A stretch of 64,000 bases of DNA, taken from positions 1 to 64,000 of the forward strand of contig NCIJ01000001.1 in the NCBI GenBank assembly GCA_002282015.1, in the 5' to 3' direction. The notes under the pieces are model-generated. The model saw only the letters and a program-made list of their open reading frames with translations. It ran no database searches and was not told the DNA's origin. This DNA is from Sulfuricurvum sp. 17-40-25 (lineage in GTDB: Bacteria > Campylobacterota > Campylobacteria > Campylobacterales > Sulfurimonadaceae). Positions 1,749-17,341 of this stretch are shown piece after piece. Every line of letters begins with the position of its first letter. Position 1 is the first letter of the stretch. Both the position numbers and the translations under genes were made by a program.

Positions 1749-2453
1749 CTAGTGTGGAGTTGGAGCATCCAACATTTGTTCAAAACCAACTTCTTTACAC
1801 CATTCAACAGTCAAGTCAAATGCTGCAGATGCAGTGTCAAGATTTTTTTGGATAAGATCCATCTTCTTTTGAAACTTTTTCTCAATAGCTGAGTCAAGTG
1901 TGGCAGTACCACCAGAAGCTGTATATTTCTTAAGGAATCTATCTTTAATACCTTCTTCAATAGCAGGCTTTCCAACAGTACCTAATGCACCAAACAATGC
2001 ACCCAACATTGCCATATTAGTAGCAAGTTCAGTTCCTGCTTGCTCAATAGCAAACTGAGTAAAATCACGAGTTAGAACTTTTACATTCAAGTCAGATAAT
2101 ACTTTTTTATCATGGTCAGTCAAAAGATCAACATCACTGTTGATGATAACTAGACCATTTTCTTTGATACCAGCATAAAACGGCATTGTGTATGATTTAC
2201 CCATAGTAATAACTTGTGGGTGGTAGATCATGACGATATCTGGATAGATAACTTCACCTCTGTCATAAACAGGTACCGTTCCAATTCTTGCATAACTCTC
2301 AGATGGAGCCATACGCTTTTCAGCACCAAAAAATGGATTAGAAACAGCGTAATAACCTGCTGTATCTGCTGCAGTTGCTGCGATGTGTGCAGCAGTAACG
2401 GCACCTTGCCCACCTAGGGCAGGCATTCTTATTTTAATTGAATCTTTTGACAT
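1749..2453 (-). CDS. 2-oxoacid:ferredoxin oxidoreductase gamma subunit, first complex (PorG/ForG type)
   Basis: Gamma subunit (234 aa) of a five-subunit OFOR, which reductively carboxylates acetyl-CoA or succinyl-CoA using reduced ferredoxin. The N-terminus RMPALGGQGAVTAAHI carries the GGQG motif typical of this Rossmann-like domain, and SGGTATLDSAIEKKF near the C-terminus is shared with the second complex. Its start overlaps the beta-subunit stop (TAATG), giving translational coupling. It is the last gene of the D-E-A-B-G operon. Which 2-oxoacid is used cannot be told by eye. Confidence 0.9.
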   Translation of the reverse strand: MSKDSIKIRMPALGGQGAVTAAHIAATAADTAGYYAVSNPFFGAEKRMAPSESYARIGTVPVYDRGEVIYPDIVMIYHPQVITMGKSYTMPFYAGIKENGLVIINSDVDLLTDHDKKVLSDLNVKVLTRDFTQFAIEQAGTELATNMAMLGALFGALGTVGKPAIEEGIKDRFLKKYTASGGTATLDSAIEKKFQKKMDLIQKNLDTASAAFDLTVEWCKEVGFEQMLDAPTPH

Positions 2454-3319
2454 TATAAACGCCCCTCTTCTTTCAATTTTGCTAAGAGTTCTTCTGCTTC
2501 TGGTGAAACAAATTTGAACGCAGCAAATCTCTCTTTGTCTTGTTCTTTCATCTCTCTAAGTCCTTCATTGGCATTTAGGCCAATTTCAAGAATACAAGGT
2601 GTATAAATATTAAGGAAAGTAGGTCCAAGATAACGAGCTACAAAAATCGCTTCTCTAACTGCTTTAGCAACTGCTTTAGGTGCAGAAGCTGTCATGTTCA
2701 TAGAATAATGACAACCAGATGTTACAGCCAATTCCCACATTCTTACTTTTTCAAACTTCTTACCAGTAGGTGCCATTTTGAAAACTTGACCTTTTGGAGT
2801 TGCGCCTGATTCTTGTCCACCAGTATTTGCATAAACTTCGTTATCAAAACAGATAGTCGTGATGTTCTCTTGTCTAAAGAATGATTGAAGTGTATAGTCA
2901 AGTCCGATGTCAACAGTAGCACCATCACCCGCTAAAACAACAACGTCTTTTTCAATTTCTGGAAATCTCCAGTCTAATACTCTTTTGATACCAGTTGCAA
3001 CTGCGTTTTGGTTACCGAAAAGTGAGTGTACCGTGTGAAGTGCAATATGTGGAAACATCAATGATGTACAACCAGTTGAGTTAACAATAACAGTATCTTC
3101 AGGTTTAGGCAATGCCGCAAGTACATATCTTAATGCAGCTGCTTCTGGACAACCAGCACAAAGTGAGTGCTCTTCTAGCAACTCTTTTGTTTCAGGAAGT
3201 TCTTTAATACCACGTTTATCTGTTGTTGCAGACCATGTAGCGTTTTCCTCAAGATCAATGATCTCTTTAGGCATAATGTCTCTAAATTCAGGATTGATTT
3301 TATAGATATTTGTTCCCAT
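2453..3319 (-). CDS. 2-oxoacid:ferredoxin oxidoreductase beta subunit (TPP-binding), first complex
   Basis: Beta subunit (288 aa) carrying thiamine diphosphate and the proximal [4Fe-4S] cluster. The CxxC pair CAGC, a further Cys in STGC, the TPP-binding stretch AGDGATVDIG, and DNEVYANTGGQ are visible. The segment HSLFGNQNAVATGI resembles pyruvate oxidoreductase beta chains (HSLFENAAAVASGI), a weak hint that this complex is the pyruvate synthase. The ATG follows AGGAG. It lies between the alpha and gamma genes and is tightly coupled to gamma. Confidence 0.92.
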   Translation of the reverse strand: MGTNIYKINPEFRDIMPKEIIDLEENATWSATTDKRGIKELPETKELLEEHSLCAGCPEAAALRYVLAALPKPEDTVIVNSTGCTSLMFPHIALHTVHSLFGNQNAVATGIKRVLDWRFPEIEKDVVVLAGDGATVDIGLDYTLQSFFRQENITTICFDNEVYANTGGQESGATPKGQVFKMAPTGKKFEKVRMWELAVTSGCHYSMNMTASAPKAVAKAVREAIFVARYLGPTFLNIYTPCILEIGLNANEGLREMKEQDKERFAAFKFVSPEAEELLAKLKEEGRL

Positions 3320-3321
3320 AA

Positions 3322-4524
3322 TTATGCTCCTTTTCCAGAGTTGATTTTTTCCATAACTTCTCTTAAAATTGCTTCAGCAGGCATACTCATACCACCAGCA
3401 ACTCTTGGTCCACCGACAACATTAGCGTCACATTTTCCATAAAGACATTTTTTAACTTCTTTTTCTAACCAGCCAACAACGTTAAACTCAGGAACAAAAA
3501 TAGTTTTTACACCTTTTAATGCTTCAAGAAGCTCAGCTTCTGGGAAAGGTCTGATAGTTCGTAATTTGATAACTTTGGTTTTAATTCCCAATTTAGTCAA
3601 TTCTCTATGTGCTTCTTTAGCTTGATACGATGCTGTACCACAAGCAACAAATGCAATCTCAGCATCTGCATCACCAGTAACATGAACAAGACCTTTAAGG
3701 TAGTGTCTAGCATAAGGAACAGAACGCTCAACTGCAGATCTGATCTCCCACTGCCAAGAAGCATGTGTAGCATAAGAAATATAGTTAGATTTCATTACAA
3801 ATGGATCTCTTAAAAAACGGCCCGGAGGTGTTTCTGAATCAATCGCTGGCAATGGTGCTCTATTTGGATCGTACGGGAAAAGTGCAATGTCATCCTCAGG
3901 AAGCATAACTGACTCTCTCGTGTGAGATACAAAGAATCCATCAACAACAGTAATAATTGGAACGTGAACATCAGGTTTTTCAGCAACAACAAAAGCTGCA
4001 ATTGACATGTCAAATAGCTCTTGAACGTTTTCAGCATACCAAATCTGACAACCAGTTTCTAACATGTATGAAACTTCCAAGTTATCTGGCTGAATCGTAA
4101 GTGGTGAGTTAATACCACGAGCCATTAGGATAAGTTGACATGGAATTCTTGTACCAGACCACTGAGCAAAGTTTTCCATTGCTCTTAGTGTACCTGGTCC
4201 AGAAGTCGTAGTAATTGTTCTAGCACCTGCCATCGCACAACCAGCGACCTCAGACATTACACCAAACTCGTTTTCACCTCTAAAGTATACACCTACATAA
4301 CCTTCAGCCCAAAGTTCACCAATAAGGTGAGCCGCTTCAGATTGTGGAGTAATAGGATACGATACAGATGCGTCAACTGTACATCTTTTTACTGCTTCTT
4401 TCAAAACCTCAGAACCAGTCATAAAGTGCTTACTTCTAGGAGCTTCGAAAAGCATATGGTCTGCTGTAACTAGCGTTTGTCCAGACCAATTTTTTGTTTC
4501 TGTCATATCACTTCGTTTACTCAT
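3322..4524 (-). CDS. 2-oxoacid:ferredoxin oxidoreductase alpha subunit, first complex
   Basis: Alpha subunit (400 aa) with the pyrimidine-binding and transketolase C-terminal-like domains. The YPITPQSE motif is the hallmark substrate/TPP region, followed by the GPGTLRAMENFAQWSG stretch and the C-terminal domain (VKTIFVPEFNVVGWLEKEV). ATG with AGGAG upstream. Only two bases separate it from beta and 15 from the E subunit upstream. Roughly half of the residues match the second-complex alpha subunit, so the two complexes are old paralogues with probably different substrates. Confidence 0.92.
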   Translation of the reverse strand: MSKRSDMTETKNWSGQTLVTADHMLFEAPRSKHFMTGSEVLKEAVKRCTVDASVSYPITPQSEAAHLIGELWAEGYVGVYFRGENEFGVMSEVAGCAMAGARTITTTSGPGTLRAMENFAQWSGTRIPCQLILMARGINSPLTIQPDNLEVSYMLETGCQIWYAENVQELFDMSIAAFVVAEKPDVHVPIITVVDGFFVSHTRESVMLPEDDIALFPYDPNRAPLPAIDSETPPGRFLRDPFVMKSNYISYATHASWQWEIRSAVERSVPYARHYLKGLVHVTGDADAEIAFVACGTASYQAKEAHRELTKLGIKTKVIKLRTIRPFPEAELLEALKGVKTIFVPEFNVVGWLEKEVKKCLYGKCDANVVGGPRVAGGMSMPAEAILREVMEKINSGKGA

Positions 4525-4539
4525 TTTAATCTCCTATTT

Positions 4540-5109
4540 CTATAGTTTCAGTTCTGATTTTACTTCTCTGGCAATTTTTATGAACTTTTCAAGCTCATGA
4601 GAGTGCATATCTCTTAATGTTGCCATTGCATCTTCATGACCTGACAAACCACAAATTGCGATTGTGTAACAATCTGTTTCTGCTCTTACGATTTTTAAAG
4701 CAACATTTGCATAGTGACAATGTACACCAATAAATATAGCTGCTTTAATTTCGTTATGCCAAATTGTCAAGTTAGGATGATTTGGATTGATTTCTACTTC
4801 AGCATCAATCTTTGGATACTTAGGTCTGTAATCGTACATTGGAATCATCTTAGCGTTAAGAACTTCAGACATCTCTTTGATAAGTTTAGCTTTTTTCTTA
4901 GACTCTTCATTGTAACCATATAACACTTGTGGACCAGGGAAAATTGTTGCATTTTCACTTGTCAACATCACTTTTGCAATTTCTCTCATTGCAATTTCTT
5001 CATCAACCACTTTTGTTAATAAAAGTGCTTTTCCTTCTGGTGGTGTAATTACACCTTCATACACAGCCGTAGGATACGGTGAATAATACGCTGGGCCTTG
5101 ATTTGCCAT
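4540..5109 (-). CDS. fifth (E) subunit of the OFOR, PorE/ForE-like, first complex
   Basis: A 189-residue protein specific to five-subunit OFORs; databases often name it after a CO dehydrogenase beta-subunit family. Its biochemical role is not settled. Conserved blocks shared with the second copy are IFPGPQ, DYRPKYPKID, EINPNHPNLTI and the Cys/His-rich GVHCHYAN...TDCYT, which could bind metal. This first copy lacks the roughly 50-residue C-terminal extension of the second. Strong ribosome-binding site AGGAG. It lies between the ferredoxin subunit and alpha. Confidence 0.85.
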   Translation of the reverse strand: MANQGPAYYSPYPTAVYEGVITPPEGKALLLTKVVDEEIAMREIAKVMLTSENATIFPGPQVLYGYNEESKKKAKLIKEMSEVLNAKMIPMYDYRPKYPKIDAEVEINPNHPNLTIWHNEIKAAIFIGVHCHYANVALKIVRAETDCYTIAICGLSGHEDAMATLRDMHSHELEKFIKIAREVKSELKL

Positions 5110-6160: not shown

Positions 6161-7771
6161 GTGGAAAAAATCATATTGCTTATTCCAAGCATACCAATTT
6201 TTATAGCATTGATTCTATTTTTTGTCACAAAAAAAGAGTTAATACCAAAAGTCAGTATCATGCTCTCAAGTATGCTGGCTCTCCTTGCATTGTATGGAAC
6301 TTATTATGTTATAAGTAATGGTACACCTATTATTGGATTTGATGGATTGCTTATTTATAATCAACTGTCAGCTATTTTGGTCCCATACGTTGCAATTTTG
6401 GGTTTAGTAATCCGTAAATATGCAACTAAATATATGTGGGATGAAGCAGGTTACAGAAGATTTTTTATTCTTTTAAACTTTATCTTTTCATCAATCTATT
6501 TACTTGTAATGAGTAACAACCTCATTGTGTTAGCACTAGCTTGGCAGCTTCTAAGTATTAGCCTGTATCTTTTGGTATCATTTAATGTAGGTTCCAACAC
6601 TGCTGTAAGACATGCACGATGGATTATGATAATACATAAAGGTGCTGATCTAGTCTTCATACTTGCAATAGTACTCACCTATCAAACGTTTGGAAGTTTT
6701 GACTTAGCGATACTGAGTGAAAAATGGTTGGCTATGTCTCACAATGCTGTTAATAATCCAATCGTTTTTGTCATAGGACTACTATTCTTGATAGCTGCTA
6801 TGATGAAATCTGCCATTATGCCATTTCATATTTGGTTACCATACACATCTGAAGCCCCTACTCCGGTATCAGCTGTAATGCACGCTGGTGTTGTGAATGT
6901 TGGAGGGATACTACTAAATAAATTAGCGTATCTATTACTGTTAACACCCGCTGTACTTAATATCGCATTTATAGTTGGTCTGCTTACAGCAATTTTTGCA
7001 TCTATTATTATGCTAACTGTCTCTGATATCAAACGTTCACTAGGATACTCAACTGTAGGGCAAATGGGATATATGATCATGGAAGTCGGTCTTGGTGCAT
7101 TTTCCTTAGCTATCTATCACTTGATTGTCCATGGTATTTTCAAAGCCACTCTCTTTTTAGAATCAGGTGGACTCATTAGATTGGCCAGACATGAACCTAA
7201 CCTTCCAAAGCGTCTTTCTTATGAACTCTTTTGGGAAGAAAAAATTAAAAGTAAAAGTAAAAAGATTTTCAACTACTTAGCCTTTTTCACCATCTTGCCA
7301 GTTGTCGTTTTTGTCGGAGTCAAAATGGTTTTAAGTGAAGAGTTCTTCCAATTTAATGCTTCAATTGTTATTTTAGCATTTGCTTGGCTTACAGGAACAC
7401 AATTATTTTTGTCATTTTTTAAAGTATCAAAGTCTGAATCCTTTAAAATGATACTTGCTTTGGTTAGTTCATTTATTATCATCTTGTTTACCTATGAGTT
7501 TATTGGATTAGAGCTTGAACATTTCATATATGGTGATGATGCATTATTATTTTATAAAGCTGCAACGTTAAACGTAACCATGCTAATGGCGCTTGTAATG
7601 TTAGCTGCAATAATGATTGTTGGATGGTTATTTATGTATAAACAACATTTTGTGGATGTTCCAGAAGCTGGAAATAAACCAGCTAAATTCAAATGGTTAT
7701 TCTATAAATTTTTAGCAAAAGAAGGCTATTACTTCAGTCTATTGAAAATTTTTAAAAAGGATAATGCATGA
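6161..7771 (+). CDS. dabB: DabB, proton-channel-like membrane subunit of the DAB inorganic carbon pump
   Basis: A 536-residue polytopic membrane protein of the NuoL/Mrp antiporter family that partners DabA; the DAB complex takes up CO2/bicarbonate energised by the cation gradient. The conserved antiporter blocks PFHIWLPYTSEAPTPVSAVM and YSTVGQMGYM, followed by LIVHGIFKATLFLESGG, are present. The start is GTG with AGGAG upstream; an 11-base repeat TTTTTAGTGGA occurs both over the start and 20 bases before it. Its stop overlaps the next ATG (ATGA), so the operon is translationally coupled. Identification rests on both sequence and the adjacent dabA. Confidence 0.92.
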   Translation: MEKIILLIPSIPIFIALILFFVTKKELIPKVSIMLSSMLALLALYGTYYVISNGTPIIGFDGLLIYNQLSAILVPYVAILGLVIRKYATKYMWDEAGYRRFFILLNFIFSSIYLLVMSNNLIVLALAWQLLSISLYLLVSFNVGSNTAVRHARWIMIIHKGADLVFILAIVLTYQTFGSFDLAILSEKWLAMSHNAVNNPIVFVIGLLFLIAAMMKSAIMPFHIWLPYTSEAPTPVSAVMHAGVVNVGGILLNKLAYLLLLTPAVLNIAFIVGLLTAIFASIIMLTVSDIKRSLGYSTVGQMGYMIMEVGLGAFSLAIYHLIVHGIFKATLFLESGGLIRLARHEPNLPKRLSYELFWEEKIKSKSKKIFNYLAFFTILPVVVFVGVKMVLSEEFFQFNASIVILAFAWLTGTQLFLSFFKVSKSESFKMILALVSSFIIILFTYEFIGLELEHFIYGDDALLFYKAATLNVTMLMALVMLAAIMIVGWLFMYKQHFVDVPEAGNKPAKFKWLFYKFLAKEGYYFSLLKIFKKDNA

Positions 7772-8499
7772 TTACTGATATTGCATTATTAATATTAGCC
7801 GGTGGACTACCGTACTATACGCTTTTAGAAAAAAATACACGTCTTTCAAGTAAAAATATATTTTTGCTGAGTGCTTTTTTACTTTTATGTGCTGTTGTAC
7901 TTTCATTATCTATACCTAATGAACATCCAGTTTCCCTGATAGTTGTTTCACTCCTTAGTGCAATATTTTCCATTTATAAAGCAACGAAGACTACCAATTT
8001 TTATAAGTTGGGCTATTATCTTATATTTGTGAATGCACCGTTTTTTATTCTTTTTGAGGATCGAGGTATTCTGTATAGTGTATCACTTCTTGTATCCTTG
8101 AGTGGATTGTATTTAATCGCAAAGTTTTATGAAAAAAACTATGGAAGTGCCAACTACAGTAATATTACTGGAATTACGCTGGTCGCGCCACATCTTGGAA
8201 CCTATCTTTCATTTTACTTGATTGCTCTGGCTCTTTATCCACCATTTCCAAATTCACTGTTTTTCTTGAACTATATCTTTAAAAGTGATCCGGACTTACT
8301 TTCATACATCGTAGTTACAACACTCTTTTTTGGTAACTTTTTTCTTGCTATGCGCGTTATGAGAAAAACTTTATTTGGCAGACCAAATCCAAATATACAC
8401 TATGTTCGTATGTCCCTAAAAGACAAAGTTATCCACCTTTTTATTTTAATATTACTTTTGATACTAAGTATCTTTGGACTTAAGGAGATTCTACTATGA
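7768..8499 (+). CDS. polytopic membrane protein between dabB and dabA, possible third DAB subunit
   Basis: A 243-residue, very hydrophobic protein with about seven or eight predicted membrane spans. It overlaps dabB by ATGA and dabA by ATGA, so all three proteins should be made together in the same membrane. The segment GITLVAPHLGTYLSFYLIAL followed by FFGNFFLAMRVMRKTLFGRP resembles the discontinuous-helix region and the basic loop near the end of NuoM/NuoL-like proteins, as if it were an extra antiporter half. The well-studied DAB systems are described with two subunits, so this protein is an uncharacterised candidate partner. The antiporter resemblance is my reading, without a search. Confidence 0.75.
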   Translation: MITDIALLILAGGLPYYTLLEKNTRLSSKNIFLLSAFLLLCAVVLSLSIPNEHPVSLIVVSLLSAIFSIYKATKTTNFYKLGYYLIFVNAPFFILFEDRGILYSVSLLVSLSGLYLIAKFYEKNYGSANYSNITGITLVAPHLGTYLSFYLIALALYPPFPNSLFFLNYIFKSDPDLLSYIVVTTLFFGNFFLAMRVMRKTLFGRPNPNIHYVRMSLKDKVIHLFILILLLILSIFGLKEILL

Positions 8500-11369
8500 G
8501 CAGTATCATTGATAAGCTAAATTCTGTCAAGGATACAGTACCACATTATTGGCCTATTGGATCATTTATCCATCATAATCCACTTAAAGGTTTTGAAGGT
8601 CTACATTTTAAAGATGGACTGATTAAAGCGCAAAGTATATTTGGCGGTAAAGTCTATATGGATTCTTCCTATTACATGGATTTGTATGAACAAGGGAAGA
8701 TTCATGACTCAGTTTTTGAAAGTAACCTAAAAAAAGTTCTTGTTGAAAAAGGCTTTGATATTCCCTTAGAGTTTGCAAAAAAGTTTCTTATGGAAGTAAG
8801 CCCAAAATGGAGCAGTCTTAGAATAAAATTTTTATCTGAAAAAGAAAATATTGACCATCAGCTCTATTTATACCTAGAAGAAAAATCAATTTATAATAAT
8901 GAAAAAGCATGGTTAAATAAGCTAATAAAACATATGACTTTGTATGAAATCAATGATGCACTGTTTGGTGGTGATGACAAAGAAAGTGTTGAGAAAAATA
9001 TCATCGAATTTATCTCACGTTTTTTAGATGAAGATCAAACTACTATGCGCATGCCAAATAGAGAGCTTGGAATGTTTGAAGCATTCAAACTTTTTGAAAA
9101 CTTTACCTATGACAAGAATGCTGAAAGTTTTGTGGAGGAATCATTAAAAAAACTCCATATTAAAGATACTGAATCTTACTTTTTATCACATCTACTAAAG
9201 CTTCATGGTTGGGCGGGGTTTATCAAATATCGTTCTGAAGATCCAGATTATATATCACAGCGGCAGCATCCATCTAGATTAATAGAGTACATGGCAATAA
9301 GACTTTATTATGAGTTACAAGCTATGAAAAACAACAAACTTAGCAACTTTGATCTTTTTGATGAATACGCTAATAACAATCTTCAAGATTCAATATTAAA
9401 GCTACTTAAGCATAAAAATATGTTATTTGGTCAGACTTTAGACAGTATTGAAGCCAATGAAAAAACTATTAAAATTTTATCTGAGCATGTCACGAATGAA
9501 TTGAACTTAGACGCTTTACAAATTCAACACTCAAATCAAGTACTCCAAAGTAATCTCCCATTAACACAACTCGCTACCATCTTGAAAAATCTAAGAGAAG
9601 AGGAAGGATATATATGGCTTAAATCCCTCGAGGATAGCTATATCCATACCTATGTTGATAAGATAATCAAAGTTCAAGCTAAAGAGGAAGAAAAAGCAAT
9701 TGCTTCTGCAACATTTTGTTTGGATGTAAGATCAGAAGTCATAAGAAGATCCATTGAAAATAGTGGTCCCTATGAAACGTATGGTGCTGGTGGATTTTTG
9801 GGTATACCAATTGCATTTGTAGAGTTTGATAAAGCACATGAACTTTTTTTATCTCCAGCTATCGTAAAACCTCAGAATGTTATCTTTGAGCTTCCTAATG
9901 AATCTCATGAAGAATACAGTTCCAAAATAGGAATGAATAAAACAACAAAAAAAGTCTTAAGTGACTTAAAAAACAATCCTTATACACCCTACATTATGGT
10001 TGAAGCGATTGGATGGATTTTTGGAATCAACCTTTTTGGTAAAACTTTTTTACCACAAAAAACAAATAAGCTTTTGTCCAAACTTAAAGCAAAAAAACCA
10101 AAGACAAGGTATACCCTGGATAAACTCTCTGTAGAAGAGATCGAGTTTTATGTAAAAAAACTTCATACTAAAATTATTCACTCAGTCTTAGCTGATAGTA
10201 CTTCTCATGACTATACCAAAGATGAGATAGATATCATTAGAAATCATCTTATCTTTAATGATGATTTGAAGATTGATATTTCAGATGAGATAATTGAAAA
10301 ACTTAAAACAGCTCATCAGATTACAGCAGAAGATTATGAGTATCAAAAAAAGAAACTGGCTATGGTTGGTTTTAGACTTGAAGAGAAAGTATCATATCTG
10401 TATAAATATTTAACCATGATAGGTCAAGTAAATAAGTTTCCTGAATTTGCAACGATTATAGGTCATGGCAGTGTATCAGACAACAATCCATTTGAGTCAG
10501 CTCTTGACTGTGGTGCATGCGGTGGAAATATAAGCTTACCAAATACAAGAGCACTTTGTATGATAGCAAATGCGAAAGATGTCCGGATAAAAATCGCAGA
10601 AAAAGGGATTAATATCCCTGAGAGCACCAAGTTTATACCTGGACTTCATATTACCACAACCGATGAAATCACATTTTACGATACTGATATCTTGACAGAT
10701 GAAGAGATGCAAAAATTTTTAAAAGTCAAAGACGACTTCAATAAAGCATCTAAACTGTCAAGAGTAGAGAGATCTGAATCTCTTCCCTATACGCATACAG
10801 AAAAAGACATGATGATCAAATCTATGGACTGGTCTGAAATAAGACCAGAATGGGGTTTAGCTAGAAATATGGGAGTTTTTGCAGGTCCACGAATCTACAC
10901 AAAGCATCTAAAACTAGATAATAGATTTTTCATGCACTCGTATGACTGGAAAATAGATAATGATGATGCTGAAATCCTTACACGTATTTTTGATGGGCCA
11001 TTAATAGTAGGTGAATGGATTAATTTAGAACACTATTTTTCTACCGTTGATAATCATGTCTATGGTGCTGGTTCGAAGGTATATCATAATGTGGTTTCAA
11101 AAATAGGCGTATTTAATGGAAACTATAGTGATTTAAAAATAGGTCTTCCTATTCAATCGGTGTACTTAGACGGAAAGGCATACCATGAACCAGTGAGGCT
11201 TATATCATTTGTCGAAGCACCATTAGAAATAGTAGGAAAAGCGGTTGAAAACTCAATCGCCAAACCTTTTATTCTCAATGAATGGATCAGACCTGTCATT
11301 GTAGATAGAGAGGCTAAAAAAGTCTACTCTTATGAAAACGGTGAATTCATTGTAATAAAAGAGATGTAA
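8496..11369 (+). CDS. dabA: DabA, zinc-binding beta-carbonic-anhydrase-like subunit of the DAB inorganic carbon pump
   Basis: A 957-residue DUF2309/UPF0753 protein. The beta-carbonic-anhydrase-like zinc ligands are visible: Cys408 and Asp410 in FCLDVRSE (with Arg412), and His657 in IGHGS with Cys672 in DCGACGG. The His-to-Cys spacing of 15 and the CxD spacing match those reported for characterised DabA. At 957 aa it is longer than the roughly 800-870 usual, with extra sequence between the CxD and His-Cys motifs. It hydrates CO2 to bicarbonate vectorially at the cytoplasmic face together with DabB. ATGA overlap with the preceding membrane protein. Two small Cys-rich genes follow. Confidence 0.94.
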   Translation: MSSIIDKLNSVKDTVPHYWPIGSFIHHNPLKGFEGLHFKDGLIKAQSIFGGKVYMDSSYYMDLYEQGKIHDSVFESNLKKVLVEKGFDIPLEFAKKFLMEVSPKWSSLRIKFLSEKENIDHQLYLYLEEKSIYNNEKAWLNKLIKHMTLYEINDALFGGDDKESVEKNIIEFISRFLDEDQTTMRMPNRELGMFEAFKLFENFTYDKNAESFVEESLKKLHIKDTESYFLSHLLKLHGWAGFIKYRSEDPDYISQRQHPSRLIEYMAIRLYYELQAMKNNKLSNFDLFDEYANNNLQDSILKLLKHKNMLFGQTLDSIEANEKTIKILSEHVTNELNLDALQIQHSNQVLQSNLPLTQLATILKNLREEEGYIWLKSLEDSYIHTYVDKIIKVQAKEEEKAIASATFCLDVRSEVIRRSIENSGPYETYGAGGFLGIPIAFVEFDKAHELFLSPAIVKPQNVIFELPNESHEEYSSKIGMNKTTKKVLSDLKNNPYTPYIMVEAIGWIFGINLFGKTFLPQKTNKLLSKLKAKKPKTRYTLDKLSVEEIEFYVKKLHTKIIHSVLADSTSHDYTKDEIDIIRNHLIFNDDLKIDISDEIIEKLKTAHQITAEDYEYQKKKLAMVGFRLEEKVSYLYKYLTMIGQVNKFPEFATIIGHGSVSDNNPFESALDCGACGGNISLPNTRALCMIANAKDVRIKIAEKGINIPESTKFIPGLHITTTDEITFYDTDILTDEEMQKFLKVKDDFNKASKLSRVERSESLPYTHTEKDMMIKSMDWSEIRPEWGLARNMGVFAGPRIYTKHLKLDNRFFMHSYDWKIDNDDAEILTRIFDGPLIVGEWINLEHYFSTVDNHVYGAGSKVYHNVVSKIGVFNGNYSDLKIGLPIQSVYLDGKAYHEPVRLISFVEAPLEIVGKAVENSIAKPFILNEWIRPVIVDREAKKVYSYENGEFIVIKEM

Positions 11370-11397: not shown

Positions 11398-11718
11398 ATG
11401 TATACACTAGAAATTGAAAAAATGTGCAGTTGTGCTCAAAAAAGTGGCTTAGAACAAGTTATGACATTTGACGAAAGACAGGATATGGTTAATAAGGCAC
11501 GAGTGTTAGAGTGTCGCATGAATCAAGAGTTTTGTATGACGCACTTCTTTGAAGCGGTAGATTATGGTGATAAGATTATTATACATAGTAGTCTAAGACC
11601 TGAAGATGAAGAGGATGATGATCATATTGAAGATGCTAGAACGCTTATAAGAAAAAGTTCGGTTACAATTGGTTTTGATGCTAGTGAAGCCCCACCAAAA
11701 GGAAGTGGAGGGAACTAA
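11398..11718 (+). CDS. small CxC/FCxTH protein downstream of dabA (copy 1), function unknown
   Basis: A 106-residue acidic protein with an AAGGA ribosome-binding site, 28 bases after dabA and probably in the same operon. It is paralogous to the next gene. Shared pattern: MYT at the start, CxC at residues 10-12, a TFD...QD...N stretch, then FCxTH (Cys46, His49) and a beta-like Ile/Val segment. The conserved Cys/His set suggests a metal or redox site. The C-terminal half is very acidic (EDEEDDD). I do not recognise the family. It is a candidate accessory or assembly factor for the zinc enzyme DabA. Confidence 0.8.
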   Translation: MYTLEIEKMCSCAQKSGLEQVMTFDERQDMVNKARVLECRMNQEFCMTHFFEAVDYGDKIIIHSSLRPEDEEDDDHIEDARTLIRKSSVTIGFDASEAPPKGSGGN

Positions 11719-11795
11719 TAATAGGGAGATAGATACATAAAATTTTATTTATCTATAGTACATACTTTTAAAAAGTACCCCAATTTCAGTTACTA

Positions 11796-11819
11796 TAACT
11801 ATACTTTGATTTATAGTTA
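11796..11819. repeat. inverted repeat just upstream of the second CxC/FCxTH gene
   Basis: TAACTATA and TATAGTTA (8 bases each, 8-base spacer) end four bases before the AAAAGGA ribosome-binding site of the gene at 11835. It could be an operator or an mRNA 5' hairpin. It suggests that the second small gene may have its own expression control in the 116-base gap after copy 1. Confidence 0.4.
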
Positions 11820-11834
11820 CTAAAAGGAAGCCTT

Positions 11835-12128
11835 ATGTATACAGTTAAAATGGAACGCGAATGTGCATGTTTTAAGAAAAGTGAATATAAAAGTGAAAAA
11901 ACATTTGATAATCAGCAAGATGCACAAAATTATACTAATATATTAATAGAGTTCATGACTGAAGATTTTTGTACAACACACTTATTTTTCTCTCAGAAAG
12001 TTAGTGATAATGAATTTCTAATCAGAGTAGTTGAAAATCCTAATAAATCTGGCGGTGGCAGTTGTGGTACTGGTATTGGCAGTGAGGATAGTAGTAGTTG
12101 TAGTACTGGTAGTTGCGGTTGTGACTAG
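11835..12128 (+). CDS. small CxC/FCxTH protein downstream of dabA (copy 2) with Cys/Gly/Ser-rich tail
   Basis: A 97-residue paralogue of the preceding protein: MYT start, CxC at 10-12, KTFDNQQDAQN, then FCTTH. Unlike copy 1 it ends in a flexible Gly/Ser/Cys-rich tail with five cysteines in about 25 residues (ending STGSCGCD), which looks like a metal-binding or redox tail. AAGGA ribosome-binding site. It ends convergently against the trigger-factor-like gene. Family not recognised; duplication beside dabA argues for a role in DAB function or biogenesis. Confidence 0.8.
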   Translation: MYTVKMERECACFKKSEYKSEKTFDNQQDAQNYTNILIEFMTEDFCTTHLFFSQKVSDNEFLIRVVENPNKSGGGSCGTGIGSEDSSSCSTGSCGCD

Positions 12129-13719: not shown

Positions 13720-14031
13720 ATGTTAGCAGAACAAAAAGAAAAATTACAAAAAGTTGTAGAGCTTATTGATAATATAGCTGTAGACCCGGATGTTACCATC
13801 GAATATTTTATACCTGGTGTTTTGGTAACTATTGATGGAGGTACTGTTGAATCTGCAGGCCCATATATACAGTTCACATATGCAAAGGAAAATATACATC
13901 CTTGGATACAACGTATGCCTTTGAAACAAAACTATCTTGAAAAAACTCCTACAGATTTAGCTAATTTTATTACCTTTACTTTGGAGCGATTTATTGAAGA
14001 AGTTGATTCAGTTGAAAGTGGTGCACAATAA
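13720..14031 (+). CDS. uncharacterised VDPD/DSVE-family protein, copy 1
   Basis: A 103-residue protein with an AAAGGAG ribosome-binding site. It shares a whole domain with the C-terminal half of the protein at 20262-20678: KLxKV near the start, VDPDxxIEY, then PYxxxTY, TPxDxxNxITF and a closing DSVExG. Predicted mixed helix and strand, soluble, without Cys. I do not recognise the family. One copy stands near each OFOR-DAB segment border, which suggests a function linked to the carbon-fixation enzymes. Confidence 0.75.
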   Translation: MLAEQKEKLQKVVELIDNIAVDPDVTIEYFIPGVLVTIDGGTVESAGPYIQFTYAKENIHPWIQRMPLKQNYLEKTPTDLANFITFTLERFIEEVDSVESGAQ

Positions 14032-15483: not shown

Positions 15484-15711
15484 TTAGTCCTCTTTACCGT
15501 GAACCATTTCCATCGTAATACAATTACGGCTTAACATATCAGTACAAACGTACACACAAAGTGCACACCCTTTACATCTGTCTTCATCTACCCATGATGT
15601 ATTCCCAACTTTATCGAACATAAGCGTGTTTGCTTCTGGACAATATAGGGTACAGGTATTACATTTATACTCAGCACACATGTCTGCATTAACTTTTGCT
15701 ACGTAATACAT
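15484..15711 (-). CDS. ferredoxin-like delta subunit of the OFOR, second complex
   Basis: A 75-residue 2[4Fe-4S] subunit, differing from the copy at 5169 only in the last residue (Asp for Glu). By my count about 14 of 228 bases differ, nearly all silent. It is the last gene of this operon, whereas in the first operon the delta gene comes first. The ATG follows AAAGGAAATAA. The cysteine pattern is the same, with the unusual C-x4-C in the first cluster motif. Confidence 0.93.
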   Translation of the reverse strand: MYYVAKVNADMCAEYKCNTCTLYCPEANTLMFDKVGNTSWVDEDRCKGCALCVYVCTDMLSRNCITMEMVHGKED

Positions 15712-15723
15712 TTATTTCCTTTA

Positions 15724-16431
15724 TTATAAATTTGGAGCTAATTGAACTATTAATTCACTACCAGATAAATCAACAGAATTTGCCATCTCAAATGTTTTTC
15801 TAATAACATTCATATTCGCTTCAAGTAATTGTTCTTTTTTCTTGAACTTTTTCTCAATAGCAGAGTCCAGCATAGCTGTTCCACCAGAAGAAACGAATGA
15901 AGTTCCTAAGAATCTTTCTCTAACAGCTGCTTCAATATGCGCTTCTGTTACAAGTTCTGTAAGACCAAGAAGCATACCCATCATAGCCATGTTTGTTGCA
16001 AGTTCAGTACCTGCAATTTTAATTGCTAAGTCTGTAGCATCAAATTGAACTACTTTTGCATTAAGCTCTTTAAGAACTTTAATATCATCGTCATCAAGAA
16101 CATTTCTATCACTATTAATAATGATAAGACTGTCTGGTTTAAGACCTGTGTAAAATGGCATTGTATATGACTTACCATGAGTAACAACCTGAGAGTGGTA
16201 AATCATAATAATATCTGGGTAAACAACTTCACCTACTTCATAAATGGGCTCTGAAGAAGCTCTTACATAAGCTTCAACCGGTGCCATACGCTTTTCAGAA
16301 CCAAAGAATGGTACCAAAGATGCATACTTACCTGCATTATCCATAGTAGAACCAAGGATGTGAGCAGTGGTAACAACACCTTGCCCACCTAGCCCAGAGA
16401 TACGGATGTTATATCTTTTTCTTGCTACCAT
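15724..16431 (-). CDS. 2-oxoacid:ferredoxin oxidoreductase gamma subunit, second complex
   Basis: Gamma subunit (235 aa from the chosen ATG) with the GLGGQGVVTTAHILG motif near the N-terminus. I chose the ATG at 16431 because GGAGG precedes it; an earlier in-frame start at 16452 lies inside the beta gene. It is clearly paralogous to the first-complex gamma chain (shared PFFGSEKRMAP, VYPDIIMIYH, KSYTMPFY) but differs at about half of the positions. It transfers or binds CoA-linked substrate parts in the complex. Confidence 0.9.
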   Translation of the reverse strand: MVARKRYNIRISGLGGQGVVTTAHILGSTMDNAGKYASLVPFFGSEKRMAPVEAYVRASSEPIYEVGEVVYPDIIMIYHSQVVTHGKSYTMPFYTGLKPDSLIIINSDRNVLDDDDIKVLKELNAKVVQFDATDLAIKIAGTELATNMAMMGMLLGLTELVTEAHIEAAVRERFLGTSFVSSGGTAMLDSAIEKKFKKKEQLLEANMNVIRKTFEMANSVDLSGSELIVQLAPNL

Positions 16432-16432
16432 A

Positions 16433-17341
16433 TTAGTTAACCTCCTCTGCAACGATACCTTTTTTCGCTCTGTGTGCTGCTTTTTCTTCAGCTTCGATAC
16501 GATCGATTACTTCTTTAGCTGCATCAGTCATGTATTCTTCGAATTGGAAACGATCTTTTTCTTGAGCTCTTGCATCTGCAAATACTTCCTCTGTAGGAAT
16601 AGAGTACTCGATATTACATGAAGTGTACGCATGAATAAACGTTGGTCCAACTTCTCTAGCAACAAAGATTGCTCTACGAATAACTTTTGCAGCTTTCTTG
16701 ATGTTAGTTGGTGACATTTTAACAATATACACACAACCAGCAGCTTTTGCCAATGCAGTTGCAGGCATTTTTTCAAAGTTTTTACCACCTGGAGCCATTT
16801 TCAATACAGCGCCCTTAGGAGACATACCACTCTCTTGACCACCAGTATTTCCATAAACTTCATTATCAAGCATGATCGTTGTGAATCTCTCACCACGAAT
16901 CCATGAGTGCATAGTCATAGAGAAACCGATATCCATAGTTCCGCCATCCCCAGCGATTGTGATAACGTCTTTTTGTTTATCAGGAAAACGCAAACGGAAT
17001 GCACGAGACAAACCAGAAGCCATTGCATTTTGGTCACCATAGTTACCGTAAATAAATGGAACTGCAGCTTGAGAAATAGCCAAACGACCACATCCAGCTG
17101 TACCCAATGTTACCGTTTCTTCAGGACATGGAAGTGAAGCAAAAATCAATCTGATGTAATATGCCATCCAACAACCAGAACACATAGGATGCTCTTCCAT
17201 CAACTCTTTAAACTGTCCCATATTACCTGGACCAGCCTCATCCTGAGTTTTTCCGAATGGACCAAAGTCAACTAATTCCACATAATCTTTTGGTAAATAT
17301 TTTTTAAACATTGCTACCGGAGTTACATATTTTAAACTCAT
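16433..17341 (-). CDS. 2-oxoacid:ferredoxin oxidoreductase beta subunit (TPP-binding), second complex
   Basis: Beta subunit (302 aa) with the cluster CxxC (CSGC), GTAGCGR, the TPP motif AGDGGTMDIG and DNEVYGNTGGQESGMSPKG. The substrate-proximal segment FIYGNYGDQNAMASGL differs from that of the first complex, fitting a different 2-oxoacid. It ends in a short charged extension (AHRAKKGIVAEEVN). Strong purine-rich ribosome-binding site AAGGGGATAAA. Confidence 0.92.
   Translation of the reverse strand: MSLKYVTPVAMFKKYLPKDYVELVDFGPFGKTQDEAGPGNMGQFKELMEEHPMCSGCWMAYYIRLIFASLPCPEETVTLGTAGCGRLAISQAAVPFIYGNYGDQNAMASGLSRAFRLRFPDKQKDVITIAGDGGTMDIGFSMTMHSWIRGERFTTIMLDNEVYGNTGGQESGMSPKGAVLKMAPGGKNFEKMPATALAKAAGCVYIVKMSPTNIKKAAKVIRRAIFVAREVGPTFIHAYTSCNIEYSIPTEEVFADARAQEKDRFQFEEYMTDAAKEVIDRIEAEEKAAHRAKKGIVAEEVN

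Follow-up and report, generated by a model that had tools for sequence, protein, structure and literature searches.

Small Cys/His proteins encoded behind dabA as possible metal-site regulators of one type of DAB CO2 pump in Campylobacterota

A dab operon with two additional small genes

The window (the whole stretch of DNA analyzed here, 64,000 nucleotides of Sulfuricurvum sp. 17-40-25) contains a DAB operon, recognized as such by a DabA (PF10070) gene that adjoins the gene for a NuoL/Mrp-like DabB. Its genes are laid out as follows.

6161-7771, forward strand: dabB, NuoL/Mrp-like membrane subunit, 536 aa (PF00361, E=2.6e-41)
7768-8499, forward strand: dabX (name given here), hydrophobic protein of 243 aa between dabB and dabA, no Pfam family
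8496-11369, forward strand: dabA, CO2-hydrating zinc subunit of the DAB pump, 957 aa (PF10070, E=5.7e-204)
11398-11718, forward strand: m1, 106 aa, family domain at about residues 1-66 (CxC at 10-12, FCxTH at 45-49) followed by an acidic, m1-specific C-terminal extension (67-106)
11835-12128, forward strand: m2, 97 aa, same domain as m1 followed by a conserved Cys/Gly/Ser-rich tail

The PF10070 match at 8496-11369 confirms the position behind dabA that the original prediction had given the two small genes. Both reading frames are present as described there, sharing an MYT start, CxC at residues 10-12, TFDxxQD and FCxTH, and the Cys/Gly/Ser-rich tail is indeed an extra feature of m2. Our literature search (including PMC13144422) found no mention of m1- or m2-like genes for any described DAB and no paper on the DABs of Campylobacterota. 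A promoter and terminator scan gave a signal no higher than that obtained with shuffled sequences.

On both sides the operon is flanked by oxoacid:ferredoxin oxidoreductase operons (1749-5109 and 15484-17341), which encode an enzyme kind of the reductive TCA cycle; similar oxidoreductase genes occur on at least one flank of dab at loci L135, L136, L137, L138, L139 and L140. About 4.5 kb upstream of dabB the reverse strand (662-1633) encodes a CobW/HypB/UreG-type GTPase (PF02492, E=1.3e-43), a candidate metal chaperone that carries a GCICC motif. A protein of about 100 residues without an assigned family is encoded near the operon at 13720-14031 (forward strand), and lookalikes of it lie near dab in two other genomes (L136, 3881-4186 and 4266-4631; L053, 11364-11645).

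m1 and m2 are homologous genes under purifying selection

The products of m1 and m2 align with a BLASTP E of 5e-13 over residues 1-51, and comparison of their profiles returns a probability of 98.9 (E=9.8e-18). With dN/dS values of 0.06-0.15, each gene evolves under purifying selection. The C-terminal extension specific to m1 is conserved, and four cysteines of the m2 tail show at least 90% conservation among those m2 sequences long enough to include them. Chance similarity and spurious reading frames are ruled out by this homology, by the dN/dS of about 0.1 and by the invariant residues described below. The two genes had been proposed as tandem paralogs: they are adjacent homologs, but m1 and m2 form two separate clades whose sister relation is uncertain, so that a local tandem duplication is only a possible origin.

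m1 and m2 belong to a wider CxC-CxxH family of Campylobacterota

A profile of the wider family matches both m1 (E=2.5e-27) and m2 (E=2.8e-24). An alignment of 85 members shows no variation at C10, C12, C46, H49 or F51, and since m1 and m2 carry the invariant C10, C12, C46 and H49 they are members of this family. The Cys/His set was thus rightly predicted to be conserved, and the suspicion that it belongs to no described family also held, with neither m1 nor m2 matching any entry of Pfam, NCBIfam or PHROGs. Searches of the PDB with the family gave no significant match. None of the libraries searched contains a description of the family, and the operon of the window is a new dab operon variant.

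Matches to the family profile occur in 113 of 397 Campylobacterota genomes and in 32 of 68 genera, and a search of the 121 genomes of the window's taxonomic family (Sulfurimonadaceae) with the m1 profile is positive for 93. Five members, on four contigs, are present in the window's own genome. Many members consist of just one domain, about 67 residues long, and several subfamilies carry short Cys/Gly tails. The sole match in the plasmid and phage collections is on one Sulfurovum plasmid. Together with a single pattern scan with m1, which covered the chromosomes outside Campylobacterota, these collections suggest that the family may be confined to this phylum.

Most of this wider family has no link to dabA. 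Within the 121-genome set, dabA is lacking in 80 of the 93 genomes in which the family occurs, which rules out a family specific for dabA and implies that the general function of the domain is broader than the DAB pump. Homologs widespread without dabA, or cysteines that are not conserved, would each have spoken against the proposed link to dabA; the former are found, whereas the cysteines are invariant.

In the family tree, m1, m2 and a nif-type group each form one clade largely bound to its own context. In several genera the nif-type subfamily is encoded behind nifK, often as a tandem pair; nifH is present in 40 of the 46 genomes with this subfamily and in 12 of the 75 without it (genomes that are not independent of one another). 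A protein of 62-72 residues without an assigned family is encoded behind nifK and/or beside the nif-type pair at three loci (L050, 7129-7347; L057, 10912-11100; L141, 6482-6670), and those of L050 and L141 have no Pfam match. Further family members are found in isolation or next to queH, chemotaxis-type or TonB-receptor-like genes.

Predicted fold and similarity to known domains

The predicted model of a free-standing 67-residue member (pLDDT 89.6, pTM 0.72) consists of a strand (2-6), the CxC with a short helix (11-16), a second strand (21-24), a helix (27-44), the FCxxH loop and two further strands (49-56 and 59-66). The m1 model has the same core at lower confidence, and its acidic extension is modeled with low confidence. 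Judged by the order of its strands and helices, the domain would have the CxC turn and the CxxH loop at one shared end, as needed for a metal site. Fold searches with the two models returned only generic neighbors (protein L/G, BamA POTRA and ribosome-biogenesis domains; Foldseek E of 0.1 or higher, VIA Z of 5.9 or lower). Hsp33 is absent from the matches listed for the two models, an absence that does not exclude a shared fold.

Among solved structures the best sequence match is the redox-switch zinc domain of Hsp33 (PDB 1xjh), which falls below significance (E=0.11, hhalign probability 58) with the CxC motifs aligned. The Hsp33 profile PF01430 has a best E of 0.075 against 74 family members, not significant, and a search for Hsp33 itself in 61 Sulfurimonadaceae genomes was negative. 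These sub-cut-off matches and the His in place of the fourth Cys leave Hsp33 as a lead and do not support membership in it. Several other assignments were rejected: CDGSH proteins (no PF09360 match, CDGSH motif absent), DUF2188 (PF09954; weak matches for 8 of the 74 members, none better than E 0.015, below cut-off), ISC ferredoxin (TIGR02007; best E 0.004, against a cut-off of 132 bits) and PII (m1 and m2 have no PF00543 match, whereas the PII genes linked to dab match at E of 1e-15 to 1e-19).

m1 accompanies one type of DabA

Strict m1 orthologs (E<1e-40) are tightly linked to DabA. Among the 121 genomes DabA is present in 13, and the orthologs occur in 11 of these 13 and are absent from all 108 genomes that lack DabA. 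They always lie directly behind dabA, 104-245 bases past the end of the DabA profile match. The two DabA genomes without m1 (G373 and G473) encode a divergent DabA (about 31-40% identity). A pattern scan with one genome per species returned 12 relatives, all 12 directly behind dabA. The co-occurrence with dabA raised in the original prediction therefore applies to m1 orthologs and does not extend to the pattern as a whole, which is found in the 93 of 121 and 113 of 397 genomes given above, mostly without dabA; m1 is specific for one DabA type and the wider family is not. A cysteine of DabA, C688, which follows the CxxC near the zinc site at a distance of 13 residues, is conserved in 16 of 16 m1-type DabA sequences and replaced by Ala or Ser in the divergent type, making it a possible partner residue on the basis of a single phylogenetic split.

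m2 and PII alternate in dab operons

The divergent DABs (G373, G473 and G372) have a PII gene directly behind dabA, so that dab operons of Campylobacterota regularly carry a small soluble PII-type gene. In m1-type operons, PII and m2 exclude each other. Five have PII just upstream of dabB and lack m2 (L134, L136, L150, L151 and L152), while m2 without PII is seen in nine operons for which 1.7 kb or more of upstream sequence is available (the window, L052, L053, L135, L137, L138, L140, L153 and L156). L154 and L155 agree with the latter group (m2, no PII) over the roughly 300 bases available upstream; L139, L157 and L158 are incomplete loci and were left out of the count. No m1-type operon has both genes and no resolved operon has neither (Fisher 5e-4, 14 operons, a count that overstates their independence). 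Mapped on the DabA tree the exchange involves at least two switches, which is modest evidence for the alternation. m1 is present in the operons with m2 and in those with PII alike.

Mutual exclusion is the expected pattern if m2 fills the regulatory slot of PII, and suggests that it may do so. Of the earlier proposal that the small proteins regulate the pump, a regulatory role is thus plausible, whereas the wider pattern is not specific to dabA.

An m2-like paralog of 111 residues is encoded outside the dab operon at two loci (L048, 6499-6834; L063, 6907-7242), behind a 68-residue reading frame. At L063, some 2-3 kb upstream of the paralog, there are genes for PII and for an SbtA-type bicarbonate transporter.

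Discussion

We tentatively propose, as a reading with somewhat less than an even chance of being right, that m1 and m2 are cytoplasmic metal-site accessory regulators of one DAB type, with m2 taking the place of PII. The C-x-C and C-x-x-H motifs of these small cytoplasmic proteins would form one metal site, most likely for zinc. That such a site is present is probable; that the proteins regulate the pump is a good deal less secure, although a serious possibility. Zinc is preferred over an iron-sulfur cluster mainly because no iron-sulfur families are matched. As the constant partner of one DabA type, m1 would perhaps dock through its C-terminal extension, and m2 would switch the pump or its assembly on thiol oxidation or metal status, where PII, by contrast, would use metabolite cues. 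The kind of metal, the redox response, the contact with DabA and the direction of control are features that we infer. What makes a redox switch the most attractive version of the regulatory reading is the Cys tail of m2, together with the Hsp33-like motif and the oxygen-sensitive enzymes found in these contexts, namely nitrogenase for the related subfamily and the oxoacid:ferredoxin oxidoreductases that flank the dab operon of the window.

The main rival is zinc delivery, with m1 and m2 binding zinc and loading or maintaining the Cys2His zinc site of DabA. The Cys/His set adjoins the gene of a zinc enzyme; m1 constantly accompanies its DabA type; and the CobW-type GTPase encoded upstream of dabB belongs to a family that includes metallochaperones. 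However, the Halothiobacillus DAB2, a two-gene system with no m1- or m2-like helpers, rescues E. coli deficient in carbonic anhydrase, and purified DAB2 has one zinc per molecule (PMC13144422), which weakens the case for metal delivery to DabA. The divergent DAB type of Campylobacterota likewise lacks m1 and m2, and a chaperone would leave unexplained both the alternation of m2 with PII and the family members found at nif or in isolation; we regard this function as unlikely. The constant place of m1 next to one DabA type and its conserved specific extension would also fit a fixed part of the DAB complex, m1 (and m2) serving assembly or stability with a metal site that only holds the fold. Such a structural role is likewise unlikely given that m2 is dispensable in five operons and that homologs stand alone elsewhere.

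If the 3Cys-1His set held a [2Fe-2S] cluster instead, m1 and m2 would be electron carriers or redox sensors, a notion favored by the resemblance of the ligand set to that of CDGSH proteins and by the sister subfamily at nitrogenase. It is very unlikely in view of the missing significant match to any iron-sulfur family, a spacing that differs from CDGSH, and the description of DAB as independent of electron transfer (PMC13144422). The occurrence of the wider family in many contexts and in 93 of 121 genomes could further point to general stress or metal-buffer proteins that are incidental in the dab operon, but with m1, m2 and the nif-type group each forming one clade largely tied to its context, and with their strong co-occurrence, this is highly improbable.

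How DAB is regulated against futile cycling is an open question in the structural study of DAB2 (PMC13144422), and a small dedicated protein that alternates with PII gives direct genetic access to this question. The family, small and probably easy to express, has links to both DAB and nitrogenase, so that one biochemical answer (metal, partner) would inform two fixation systems. More speculatively, and rather doubtful as a whole, a so far unrecognized family of metal-site regulators may plug into DAB and nitrogenase as separate fixation systems of Campylobacterota, with thiol- or metal-responsive control replacing PII in the case of DAB.

Comparison with known systems

In motif there is a resemblance to the redox-switch domain of Hsp33 (PF01430), where a CxC is likewise followed some 30-33 residues on by a Cys-containing motif. 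That motif is CxxC in Hsp33 and CxxH here (His at the fourth position in 85 of 85 members), and the m1/m2 family lacks the chaperone domain. CDGSH iron-sulfur proteins (PF09360) use a 3Cys:1His ligand set, and share with m1 and m2 such a set with a CxC, but in the m1/m2 family some 33 residues separate the CxC from the following Cys. PII proteins (PF00543), encoded with inorganic-carbon transporters, are the counterpart as small soluble proteins with a gene in the dab operon; m2 is unrelated to them in sequence and has a Cys/His set in place of the nucleotide-binding PII fold. Among described DABs, the three-gene DAB1 of Halothiobacillus neapolitanus also has a hydrophobic gene between dabB and dabA, and the position of dabX resembles that of hneap_0908, the small transmembrane gene of three-gene DAB1 operons (PMC13144422). 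The operon of the window differs from the described DABs in adding the Cys/His genes m1 and m2 behind dabA.
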